41,417 nucleotides of DNA, taken from NCBI RefSeq assembly GCF_000935215.1, contig NZ_JXXD01000023.1:1-41417 (forward strand). The letters are read 5' to 3'. Position 1 is the first letter of the stretch. Every line of letters begins with the position of its first letter. A model generated the notes under the pieces. The model made no database searches, was not told the DNA's origin, and was given only the letters and a program-made list of their open reading frames with translations. Below, piece after piece: positions 3,726-40,452 of the stretch. The stretch is from Stutzerimonas stutzeri (GTDB taxonomy: Bacteria; Pseudomonadota; Gammaproteobacteria; Pseudomonadales; Pseudomonadaceae). The translations under genes and the position numbers were made by a program.

Positions 3726-4412
3726 ATGGGTCAGAAAGTACATCCCACTGGCATTCGCCTGGGAATCGTCAAGGAGCACACCTCCGTCTGGTACGCAGAC
3801 GGCCGTACGTATGCAGACTATCTGCTTGCAGATCTGAACGTGCGTGAGTACCTCCAAGACAAATTAAAAAGCGCGTCCGTAAGCCGTATCGATATCCATC
3901 GCCCGGCTCAAACCGCACGCATCACCATCCACACCGCTCGTCCCGGCATTGTGATCGGCAAGAAGGGTGAGGATGTTGAGAAGCTGCGTCAGGACCTGAC
4001 CAAGCAAATGGGTGTGCCGGTGCACATCAATATCGAAGAGATCCGCAAGCCGGAGCTCGACGCAATGCTGGTTGCACAGAGCGTAGCTCAGCAGCTGGAG
4101 CGTCGCGTGATGTTCCGTCGCGCCATGAAGCGCGCCGTACAGAACGCCATGCGCATTGGTGCCAAAGGCATCAAGATCCAGGTCAGTGGTCGTCTGGGTG
4201 GGGCTGAAATTGCCCGTACCGAGTGGTATCGCGAAGGTCGTGTGCCTCTGCACACCCTGCGTGCCGATATCGATTACAACACTTACGAAGCGCACACCAC
4301 TTACGGTGTGATCGGCGTGAAGGTGTGGATCTTCAAGGGCGAAGTAATTGGTGGTCGCCATGAAGAGCTCAAGCCTCAAGCGCCTGCTCCTCGTAAAAAA
4401 GCTGCTAAGTAA
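3726..4412 (+). CDS. rpsC: 30S ribosomal protein S3
   Basis: S3 lies at the mRNA entry site and takes part with S4 and S5 in ribosomal helicase activity. The product has 228 residues, starting [15 protein letters not shown]. The open frame extends upstream to 3642 inside rplV, but only the ATG at 3726, with a GGAG motif nearby, gives the family N-terminus. A type II KH domain lies at about residues 39-107 with its GxxG loop (IGKKGED). The Lys/Ala-rich tail is usual. Confidence 0.97.
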
Positions 4413-37702: not shown

Positions 37703-38170
37703 ATGCATTGTCCCTTCTGTGCCGCCAACGATACCAAGGTCATCGATTCCCGCCTGGTTGCCGAAGGCGATCAGGTGCGCCGCCGCCGCGAGTGTCTGGC
37801 CTGTGGCGAGCGTTTCACCACCTTCGAAACCGCCGAGCTGGTGATGCCGCGCCTGATCAAGTCCGATGGCAGCCGACAGCCGTTCGACGAGCAGAAACTG
37901 CGCGCCGGCATGCAGCGTGCGCTGGAAAAGCGTCCGGTCAGCGTCGAGCGTCTCGAAGCGGCCATCGCCCATATCAAGCATCAGCTGCGCGCCACCGGCG
38001 AGCGCGAAATCAAGTCGCGGGTGCTCGGCGAACTGGTGATGGCCGAGCTGCAGAAGCTCGACGAGGTCGCCTATATCCGCTTCGCCTCGGTCTACCGCCG
38101 CTTCCAGGACCTCAACGAATTCCGTGAGGAAATCGAGCGGCTGTCCCGCGAACCCGCGAAGCCCGAATGA
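37703..38170 (+). CDS. nrdR: Transcriptional repressor NrdR
   Basis: NrdR senses ATP/dATP and represses ribonucleotide reductase genes. The product has 155 residues. An N-terminal zinc ribbon has Cys3, Cys6, Cys31 and Cys34 (MHCPFC … [12 protein letters not shown]). An ATP-cone domain (about 46-136) follows, starting [22 protein letters not shown]. The frame opens at 37220, but the ATG at 37703 gives the exact family start. The 4-base overlap with ribD is a common nrdR-ribD pairing in gammaproteobacteria. Confidence 0.96.
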
Positions 38171-39267
38171 CTACCGGGCACGCCTGGATGGCCCGCGCAC
38201 TGCAGCTGGCGCGAAAAGGCCTGTATTCGACCCATCCGAACCCGCGGGTCGGTTGCGTGATCGTCGCCGCTGGCGAGCTGGTTGGCGAAGGCTGGCACGT
38301 ACGCGCCGGCGAGCCACATGCCGAAGTCCATGCGCTGCGCCAGGCGGGTGAGCGCGCCCGCGGTGCCACCGCTTACGTCACCCTCGAACCTTGCAGCCAC
38401 TACGGGCGTACACCGCCCTGTGCCGAAGCGCTGGTCAAGGCAGGCGTCGGGCGCGTAGTAGCGGCCATGCAGGACCCCAACCCGCAGGTCGCTGGGCGTG
38501 GCCTGCAATTACTGCGCAGCGCCGGCATCGAAGTCGCCAGCGGTGTGCTGGAAGCCGAGGCGCGCGAGATCAACTGCGGCTTTATCAAGCGTATGGAAAG
38601 CGGCCTGCCGTTCGTTCGCGCCAAACTCGCGATGAGCCTGGACGGGCGCACCGCGATGGCCAGCGGCGAAAGCCAGTGGATCACCGGCCCGGCCGCACGT
38701 GCCGAGGTGCAGCGCTTGCGCGCCCGCTCCAGCGTGGTGCTGACCGGCGCCGATACCGTGCTGATGGACGCCGCACGGCTGACCGTGCGTGGCGATGAGC
38801 TGGGGCTGGATGCGGAAACCACGGCACTGGCGCTGCAGCGTCCGCCTCTGCGGGTGCTGGTCGATGGGCAGCTGCGCGTGCCGCTGGATGCGCCGTTCTT
38901 TCAGGCAGGTCCGGCGCTGGTCGCCACCACTGTCGCTGGCCATGAGGGTGCGTTCGCTGCTGCGGGGCATGAGTTGCTGGTGTTGGGCCAGGAGCGGGTC
39001 GATCTAACTGCATTGTTGCGTGAGCTGGGCGCGCGTGGTGCCAACGAGGTGCTGGTCGAAGCCGGCCCGCGGCTGGTCGGCGCCTTCGCCGGTCTTGGTT
39101 TGATCGACGAATACCAGATATTCATGGCCGCCAAGTTTCTCGGCTCCTCGGCGCGGCCGCTGCTGGAGCTTCCGCTCGATCGCATGAGCGAGGCGCGCGA
39201 GCTGAAGATCGTCGACATCCGTGCGGTGGGTGACGACTGGAAGATCGTGGCACGTCCGGCCAGCTGA
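38167..39267 (+). CDS. ribD: Bifunctional riboflavin deaminase/reductase RibD
   Basis: RibD performs two early steps of riboflavin synthesis. The N-terminal deaminase (about 1-145) has zinc ligands His51 (in PHAEVHA, with catalytic Glu53), Cys76 and Cys85 (in [12 protein letters not shown]). The C-terminal reductase (about 150-366) begins [24 protein letters not shown] and includes [17 protein letters not shown]. The length of 366 is normal. It is translationally coupled to nrdR and separated from ribE by a 522-base region holding the FMN riboswitch. Confidence 0.96.
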
Positions 39268-39379: not shown

Positions 39380-39395
39380 GGGCCGCAAGCGGCCC
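39380..39395 (+). other. Inverted repeat before the FMN riboswitch
   Basis: GGGCCGCAAGCGGCCC can fold as a 6-bp GC stem with a CAAG loop just upstream of the aptamer. No T run follows. It may stall transcription or help isolate aptamer folding. The stretch 39268-39379 before it holds no gene and no convincing promoter. Confidence 0.4.
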
Positions 39396-39397
39396 AA

Positions 39398-39666
39398 CGT
39401 TCTCAGGGCGGGGTGCGATTCCCCACCGGCGGTAATGGCGCAGTTACAAGGATGAAAGCGTAGCGAGCGCTGGGCAGGCAAGGCGTGATTCGACGAGAAA
39501 GCGGAGTTTACTGCGGTAAATGAGCATTTCGAGGAGGAGCACAACGCAGCATGCTCTGCGCGCAGTAGCTTTCAATCGCGTCTAGCCCGCGAGCGCTTGC
39601 TTCGGCAAGGTCAGCAGACCCGGTGTGATTCCGGGGCCGACGGTATAGTCCGGATGAGAGAGAGCG
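39398..39666 (+). ncRNA. FMN riboswitch (RFN element) with long insertion
   Basis: The conserved pieces of the FMN aptamer are present in order: TCTCAGGGCGGGGTG, TTCCCCACCGGCGGTAA, AGCCCGCGAGCGC, GTCAGCAGACCCGGTG, TTCCGGGGCCGACGG and AGTCCGGATGAGAG. P1 pairs CGTTCTC (39398-39404) with GAGAGCG (39660-39666). The variable stem-loop region (39436-39583) is about 148 nt here, compared with roughly 15 nt in E. coli ribB, and carries a large hairpin. The element should down-regulate ribE and ribBX when FMN is abundant. Confidence 0.96.
39454..39573 (+). repeat. 120-nt hairpin insertion in the riboswitch variable arm
   Basis: GAAAGC (39454-39459) pairs with GCTTTC (39568-39573), and a long imperfect stem continues inward. 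The inner arms around 39492-39506 and 39521-39531 also pair imperfectly, ending in a perfect TTTAC-TGCG-GTAAA apex (39507-39520). From memory, similar sequence with the GAGAAAGCGGAGTTTAC and GTAAATGAGCATTTCGAGGAG arms recurs elsewhere in Pseudomonas genomes. Recurrence in this genome is not tested. Confidence 0.7.
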
Positions 39667-39725
39667 GGATATCCCGATGGACGCCGTCCGTGCGCCCGTC
39701 ATGCATCCCTATCGATCCGTAGCGC

Positions 39726-39754: not shown

Positions 39755-39805
39755 ATGCAGCGTTTTACCCGCCTTCCTCGGGAGGCCACATGTTCACCGG
39801 AATAA
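39755..39805 (+). CDS. Possible 16-residue leader peptide overlapping ribE
   Basis: An ATG at 39755 has AGGAG 8 bases upstream and opens a frame encoding MQRFTRLPREATCSPE, stopping at TAA 39803-39805, 13 bases beyond the ribE start codon in another frame. The spacing and overlap are right for translational coupling of ribE to a short upstream ORF whose ribosome site sits in the riboswitch hairpin. Whether it is translated is unknown. Confidence 0.35.
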   Translation: MQRFTRLPREATCSPE

Positions 39806-40452
39806 TCGAAGCCATCGGCACCATCCGTGCGCTCACGCCCAAGGGCGGCGACGTACGCGTGCTGGTCGAAACCGGCAAGCTGGATCTGGGCGACGTCAAA
39901 CTGGGCGACAGCATCGCCGTCAACGGCGTCTGCCTGACTGCGGTGGAGCTGCCGGGCAACGGCTTCTGGGCCGACGTCAGCCGCGAAACCCTGGCGCGCA
40001 CCGCCTTTATCGACCTCAAGGCCGGCAGTCGGGTCAATCTGGAGAAGGCCCTGACGCCTACCAGCCGCCTCGGCGGGCACCTGGTCAGCGGTCACGTCGA
40101 CGGCGTCGGCGAGGTCGTGGCGCGTGAAGATAACGCCCGCGCCGTACAGTTCCGCATCCGCGCGCCACGCGAGCTGGCCAAGTACATCGCGCTCAAGGGC
40201 TCGATCACCGTCGATGGCACCAGCCTCACGGTCAATGCGGTCAATGGCGCCGAATTCGAGCTGACCATCGTGCCGCACACCCTCGGCGAAACCATCATGG
40301 CCGACTACCGCCCCGGGCGGCAGGTGAACCTGGAAGTCGACCTGCTGGCGCGTTACCTAGAGCGCCTGATGATGGGCGACAAGGCCGCCGAACCCAAGGC
40401 CTCGGGGCTCACCGAAGGTTTTCTCGCCGAGCACGGCTACCTGAAGAATTGA
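39790..40452 (+). CDS. ribE: Riboflavin synthase alpha subunit
   Basis: This enzyme dismutates two molecules of 6,7-dimethyl-8-ribityllumazine to riboflavin. The product has 220 residues with the family start MFTGIIEAIGTI. Two homologous barrels are present: SIAVNGVCLTAVE in the first and SITVDGTSLTVNAV in the second. The GGHLVSGHVDGVGEV linker between them is typical. A GGGAGG ribosome binding site (39779-39785 region) precedes the ATG and may itself pair with the CTTCC just upstream. Some databases call this gene ribC. Confidence 0.96.
   Translation: MFTGIIEAIGTIRALTPKGGDVRVLVETGKLDLGDVKLGDSIAVNGVCLTAVELPGNGFWADVSRETLARTAFIDLKAGSRVNLEKALTPTSRLGGHLVSGHVDGVGEVVAREDNARAVQFRIRAPRELAKYIALKGSITVDGTSLTVNAVNGAEFELTIVPHTLGETIMADYRPGRQVNLEVDLLARYLERLMMGDKAAEPKASGLTEGFLAEHGYLKN

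Follow-up and report, generated by a model that had tools for sequence, protein, structure and literature searches.

Several described systems come close to the locus analysed here (descriptions of published systems refer to the relevant passages of the cited papers). In pneumococci, a BOX element lies between two T-box riboswitches, so that an interspersed repeat is transcribed within a riboswitch leader, as in the present case; the BOX-bearing T-box leader was reported still to work (PMC3049150). IS1272 of staphylococci, a member of the IS1182 family, targets hairpins, in many cases terminators, irrespective of their primary sequence; the stem-loop hit is deleted and no duplication arises (PMC5678879, PMC4923244); duplication of the loop is given in PMC5678879 merely as a hypothetical pathway. 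Two further groups are similar by description. The R0 and R2 repeats of P. fluorescens are, like the element studied here, short intergenic repeats with inverted ends and were proposed to be MITEs of resident IS elements (PMC2718517). ERIC, Correia and other palindromic repeats are likewise imperfect palindromes of 100-160 bp, located between genes and folded in mRNA (PMC10969869). The BRE repeat of betaproteobacteria was considered and dropped, being about 90 bp long and from another clade (PMC3110155). The passages seen on P. gingivalis repeats (PMC5771137) and in a large IS survey (PMC9208149) held no precedent. In the open-licence part of PubMed Central, as far as its texts were seen, no description of a transposable element within an aptamer was found, the BOX case (PMC3049150) being the nearest; pseudomonad repeats may also be treated in subscription papers.

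The FMN riboswitch of the ribE locus and its P3 arm

Analysis of the window, i.e., the whole stretch of 41,417 nucleotides of Stutzerimonas stutzeri DNA, revealed a predicted FMN riboswitch located between two open reading frames (ORFs). The features of the locus are as follows:

38167-39267, + strand: upstream ORF from the ORF list, presumably ribD-like judging by its sequence
39395-39669, + strand: predicted FMN riboswitch aptamer, split by the arm (two RF00050 halves; core columns as in L107 and L108)
39437-39582, + strand: extended P3 arm with a closing stem of GGCGC (39437-39441) and GCGTC (39578-39582), delimited from the sequence and by comparison with short arms
39445-39582, + strand: copy of the dispersed palindromic element at full model length (model R1)
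39454-39573, + strand: element body, which BLAST aligns with dispersed copies of the genus over its positions 1-120 of 120
39507-39520, + strand: tip hairpin TTTAC-TGCG-GTAAA, from the sequence
39790-40452, + strand: ORF from the ORF list, presumably ribE (riboflavin synthase), which adjoins the riboswitch in relatives too

Searching with the Rfam model RF00050 gave two partial matches, 39395-39463 with 25.8 bits and 39549-39669 with 60 bits. Neither half reached the gathering score of 66.2 bits because the arm interrupts the match, and no uninterrupted match was obtained. The two halves together cover the six-stem conserved core, and the compared columns outside the arm were identical to those of the short-armed relatives L107 (124.3 bits) and L108 (123.2 bits). 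The sequence-only reading, which had called the aptamer core complete, was correct on this point. The ribE gene would be controlled by the predicted FMN riboswitch. The RibE protein of the window is 100% identical to that of L026 and L027. Elsewhere in the window, the only Rfam match at gathering score was an Alpha operon ribosome binding site (RF00140, 11045-11139, + strand, 50.4 bits).

With the conserved UAAU and CUA as limits, the P3 arm measures 152 nt, compared with 16-37 nt in 29 of the 30 unarmed genus genomes and 70 nt in the remaining one (L127). Folded by itself (39450-39580), the arm reached -48.6 kcal/mol, with a z value of -2.41 and 5 of 200 shuffles equally good; the entire 269-nt region folded only weakly better than its shuffles (z -1.55, 17/200). 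The same reading had described a long insertion in one riboswitch arm, structured as a hairpin and ending in a perfect TTTAC-TGCG-GTAAA tip; the length comparison and the folding of the arm alone support the first two statements, and the tip was located as listed above.

RF00050 was matched in 54 of the 56 genus genomes, 30 of which scored over the cut-off; the two genomes with no match are 71-73% complete. When all 54 loci were read, the 24 below the cut-off, including the window, proved to be armed, and the 30 above it had no such arm. Named armed records are Stutzerimonas chloritidismutans AW-1 (L026), S. xanthomarina PX_067 (L027) and Pseudomonas sp. Q2-TVG4-2 (L032). The comparison of relatives with and without the arm, which had been proposed earlier, showed an intact aptamer core at 24 of 24 armed loci.

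The short arms of relatives include GGC-UUCG-GCC and GGC-CACG-GCC, which, judged by sequence, resemble the putative preferred target of the element. None of the short arms compared represents an exact empty site. The 70-nt P3 arm of L127 (genome G012) retains both element ends with the middle missing and gave no match to R1; it is possibly a deletion derivative, a shrunken element copy. At L131, L133 and L134, a short, unrelated insertion resembling a hairpin enlarges the P6 loop of the FMN riboswitch.

The P3 arm is a copy of a dispersed palindromic element

The covariance model R1 was generated from 22 dispersed copies only, with no riboswitch copy included. It matched the window arm with 100 bits (E 1.7e-21) over model positions 1-140 of 140. 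All 24 armed riboswitches were matched, compared with none of six other loci searched; 23 of the armed loci reached E 3e-10 or better, and the weakest was L144 (20.7 bits, E 0.012). Copy numbers obtained with R1 are lower bounds, as the scoring covered a restricted set of candidates in each genome: the window's genome contains at least 10 matches at E 0.01, the arm included, and at E 1e-4 all 56 genus genomes were positive, with from at least 1 to at least 47 matches each. At E 1e-5, R1 detected the family in 163 of 198 family genomes and in 18 of the 19 genera of the family. With the 120-nt insertion as BLAST query, 53 of 56 genus genomes were positive at E 1e-4, counting riboswitch arms, and the full-length dispersed copies among the matches listed showed about 71-79% identity to the insertion. 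The sequence-only reading had suspected a repeat of pseudomonad genomes and had suggested a search with 39454-39573, regarding confinement of the arm to this riboswitch as evidence against its idea. The suspected repeat is real; the search against genus genomes returned end-to-end dispersed copies, and the R1 family is dispersed. These results show that the P3 arm is a copy of a dispersed palindromic element of about 140 nt.

Analysis of the structure of the dispersed copies revealed compensatory changes at 28 of 49 pairs, and 96.5% of the cells were paired versus 86.1% in shuffles. G-U cells outnumbered A-C cells (33 versus 14, in copies that are not independent), which hints that the R1-sense strand folds; this hint was not relied on.

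Among the matches listed for the genus, the top 23 DNA matches to the arm were all riboswitch arms (217 to 108 bits), with the best dispersed copy at 94 bits and the 24th arm at 61 bits. The element tree separated the 24 P3 arms from 27 dispersed copies by one branch (99/98). Because some copies from outside the genus were closer to the arm by DNA score than some arms (G147, 124 bits; G204, 114; G113, 113), six such copies were added to a second tree, together with the P4 and cobalamin copies described below. The P3 arms remained one clade in this enlarged tree (100/99). Judged by their flanks, the six added copies lie outside an FMN riboswitch; in L396 (G147), the element copy was present and the FMN core words were not found.

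At gathering scores, Rfam gave no match in 20 element loci, though the family occurs in 163 of the 198 genomes examined. In 60 further loci scanned at E 0.01, the lone match on the element itself, as opposed to matches that just span it, was a hit below threshold to the Xanthomonas sRNA sX9 in L280 (1562-1634; 39.1 bits, cut-off 44, E 0.0015), which overlaps the opposite strand of the element. L304 carries a group II intron match (1683-1759, - strand) approximately 20 nt beyond an element copy. An element class of about 208 bp, with a second palindromic stretch nested beside the tip, was observed in eight copies of genome G080 (L336-L343), in which R1 matches across a longer span. In the five named records L028, L029, L030, L042 and L059, element copies were found near 4255-4400 on the - strand, approximately 1.1 kb past the end of ribE, probably beyond ribBA in the same operon.

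Insertion marks, putative partner elements and further riboswitch copies

The R1 search yielded 132 hits at 129 loci. After removal of three second or weak hits (L293, L272, L274) and of three loci recorded twice with different ids (L231, L206, L207), 126 copies were left; 35 of these were merged for similar flanks, which gave 91 non-redundant copies, representing the better-scoring loci and not a random sample. According to a simple ORF caller, 62 of the 91 copies are positioned between codirectional genes, 30 in the sense and 32 in the antisense orientation, and there is therefore no general strand bias; a role in RNA, for which this orientation served as the test, gained no backing at the codirectional sites. 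Convergent genes surround 16 copies and divergent genes 7, and the other 6 overlap predicted ORFs or are without a neighbour. Many dispersed copies start at, or a few bases from, a predicted stop codon, and the element end may therefore supply or restore a stop codon.

The flanks of the copies were enriched in two marks. Stems of at least 8 pairs within 8 nt of the element ends were found in 15 of the 91 copies, compared with 2.22 expected from mismatched flanks (0 of 20,000 permutations), and most of these 15 copies carry A or T tracts as in terminators. In 11 copies the ends bear exact 4-bp direct repeats, versus 0.73 expected (0/20,000 permutations), and all 11 belong to the 46 copies with CAG..CTG ends. 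In several cases the repeated 4 nt constitute the loop of the surrounding hairpin (GATG in L246, CGAA in L247 and L229, ATGA in L283, ATTC in L319 and CTTG in L219). The ends used in this duplication test were fixed to the model after the data had been seen; an earlier test with floating boundaries gave a weaker result (k=4, 3 of 64 versus 0.29 expected; k=2, 9 versus 3.7 expected). With fixed ends, 3-bp repeats occurred in 6 of 91 copies versus 2.3 expected (476/20,000 permutations), repeats of 2 and 5 bp were not clearly enriched among the 91 copies, and repeats of 6-9 bp were absent from them. A duplicated TA target, as for IS630-like elements, was also considered and rejected: TA is frequent on single sides, and both-sided TA was observed once versus 2.0 expected. 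Two counts speak against transposition, namely the 76 of 91 copies that lie outside any stem of at least 8 pairs and the 80 of 91 that lack an exact 4-bp duplication.

A search of six genomes for the 16-nt end of the element revealed two larger elements, L349 (1664 bp) and the decayed L345 (1040 bp), both in G169, which belongs to another genus of the family. The ORF of L349 (488 aa) was classified as an IS1182 family transposase (NF033551, 478.8 bits, cut-off 270; Pfam DDE_Tnp_1); the ORF of L345 scored 258 on NF033551, under the cut-off of 270. Both elements are flanked by 4-bp repeats (GGCC and AAGT, respectively), and L345 is located in the loop of a GAAGCCCGGC/GCCGGGCTTC hairpin. Relatives of the transposase were detected at E 1e-20 in 23 of 56 genus genomes, the window's genome containing fragments only. 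Ends were examined in the 16 of 30 fetched loci that had near full-length matches. L367 and L384 (G024, same genus) are intact 1585-bp elements with CAGACTGTGTGAAAAC ends as in the R1 family, and their repeats, TTGC and TTTG, are situated in terminator loops. In 11 of the 16 loci a related but different end, CAGnnnGTGTAAAAAC, was found, with GGCC on both sides in 9 of these; in the other three, no credible ends of the R1-family type were found. With its 4-bp duplications, terminator-like loops and IS1182-family elements bearing the same ends, the R1 family looks transposable, as far as sequence comparison can tell. Its copies fit the hypothetical loop-duplication pathway outlined in PMC5678879.

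Further riboswitches also contain the element. The FMN riboswitch that precedes ribE in genus g12 has a P3 arm of 21 nt and carries the element in its P4 arm (L398, 8147-8284, 87.6 bits, E 8.5e-19; L397, 6328-6456, 47.5 bits, E 2.8e-9); the match in L399 (14.7 bits, E 0.18) is at most a remnant. In G203, a full copy (L282, 1501-1640) lies inside a cobalamin aptamer match (1378-1730), by sequence directly before the P6 hairpin and outside the P6 loop. In G187, a cobalamin aptamer has a long P6 loop in which a degraded copy of 29.7 bits is located (E 3.1e-4 in the locus scan, 4e-7 within 411 bases). Judging by protein motifs, the ORFs after these two aptamers are presumably cobO-like and cbtA-like, respectively. 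The L282 and L398 copies branch away from the P3 clade, L398 on a long branch. In L272 an element copy abuts a cobalamin aptamer, and in L310 (1519-1735, - strand) one directly follows an SAH riboswitch aptamer on the same strand. The cases with cobalamin and SAH aptamers were drawn from 60 scanned loci, and no enrichment is claimed.

Origin of the arm and comparison with known systems

We consider it likely that the arm is the dispersed element of about 140 nt, which would have entered as a non-autonomous IS1182-type transposon (MITE) into, or in place of, the short P3 side hairpin and been tolerated there. In this process, an IS1182 transposase would have moved the mini-element, and the target would have been a hairpin loop in a short arm of the kind seen in relatives (GGC-UUCG-GCC or GGC-CACG-GCC). 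In the window copy, neither the outer canonical 10-nt ends nor a 4-bp target duplication are recognisable; because these marks are lost, we infer its insertion. The window copy is old and represents a single old entry that has evolved in place since. On the ribE tree, the armed state requires at least 14 changes, 7 of them forced by well-supported branches, and loss or exchange was therefore frequent; later losses, or exchange by recombination, could have generated the patchy pattern of the arm. The likely reason for its toleration is that the arm folds back on itself, away from the unchanged ligand-binding core. Toleration is the default reading, under which FMN sensing by the armed RNA would be unchanged.

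The alternatives differ in how they account for the arm and its preservation. The window's assembly consists of 397 contigs, which might suggest an artefact or chimera; the arm is also present in single-contig assemblies (e.g., G029, G032, G045 and G048), and such an error is hardly conceivable. A lineage-specific expansion of the P3 hairpin unrelated to mobile repeats would agree with the single clade formed by the P3 arms and with the riboswitch arms that head the genus DNA matches listed, but the E value reached with a model free of riboswitch copies and the end-to-end alignment of the arm with dispersed copies make it highly improbable. The insertion might instead have broken the riboswitch and left a decaying relic, as the RF00050 scores under the cut-off in 24 of 24 armed genomes could indicate. 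These scores are low because the match is split, the core columns are intact in all 24, and the core diverges least; decay is accordingly improbable. Relative to ribE third positions, the divergence slopes in 23 armed loci (L167 was left out as poorly aligned) were 0.095 for the aptamer core, 0.44 for the arm, 0.50 for the leader spacer and 1.5, partly saturated, for the 100 nt upstream, the core being the least divergent of the stretches compared.

The same slopes bear on a co-option of the arm for a task in the mRNA, e.g., as a site for a protein or an RNase, or as an aid to folding, by which expression of the rib operon would be tuned; the sequence-only reading had likewise considered that the arm might bind a protein or be sensitive to RNase. 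The arm diverges more slowly than ribE third positions, which may indicate use rather than mere toleration; 97.5% of the cells pair in 23 distinct arms, with compensatory changes at 3 of 37 pairs, and the arms retain the internal-loop words that are conserved in the family. On the other hand, such an arm is absent from 30 of 54 genomes, among them that of L109, which is 95-100% identical to the armed L166 in its flanks (600 bp upstream, 700 bp downstream). The pairing exceeds that of shuffles by little (97.5 versus 96.6%), the internal loops are equally conserved in dispersed copies and therefore need not serve the riboswitch, and recombination could likewise slow the apparent divergence. Arm divergence and pairing fit either constraint or recent spread by recombination, and co-option is rather unlikely as compared with an inserted and tolerated MITE.

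A wider proposal covers the FMN P3 arm in Stutzerimonas, the FMN P4 arm in another genus and the cobalamin aptamers of two further genera: a hairpin-seeking IS1182-type element would have repeatedly grafted ready-folded arms onto peripheral riboswitch stems, some of which, including that of the window, would now be working parts. We regard this proposal as tentative and somewhat doubtful. A transposon that aims at hairpin loops would show concretely how regulatory RNAs could acquire large side arms, and the near-identical natural loci with and without the arm (L166 and L109) make its effect on FMN sensing directly testable. The arm also creates a blind spot in annotation, as 24 of the 54 RF00050-matched genus genomes fall under the curated cut-off, all of them armed; the silence of Rfam at gathering scores in element loci adds to it.

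In comparison with the described repeats, the element resembles R0 and R2 by description only, since these are reported to be 89 and 110 bp long with another host range (PMC2718517); ERIC and Correia, described in other bacteria, are likened on the same basis (PMC10969869). The R1 family would share with IS1272 the IS1182-family transposase, resembles it in its hairpin targets and differs in its 4-bp duplications, several of which equal the loop, whereas IS1272 deletes the stem-loop (PMC5678879); unlike IS1272, the window copy is a mini-element that carries no transposase. BOX is situated between two aptamers, whereas the window element lies within a peripheral stem of one (PMC3049150). Compared with the RF00050 FMN riboswitch, the window has the complete conserved core before ribE and differs by its 152-nt P3 arm.
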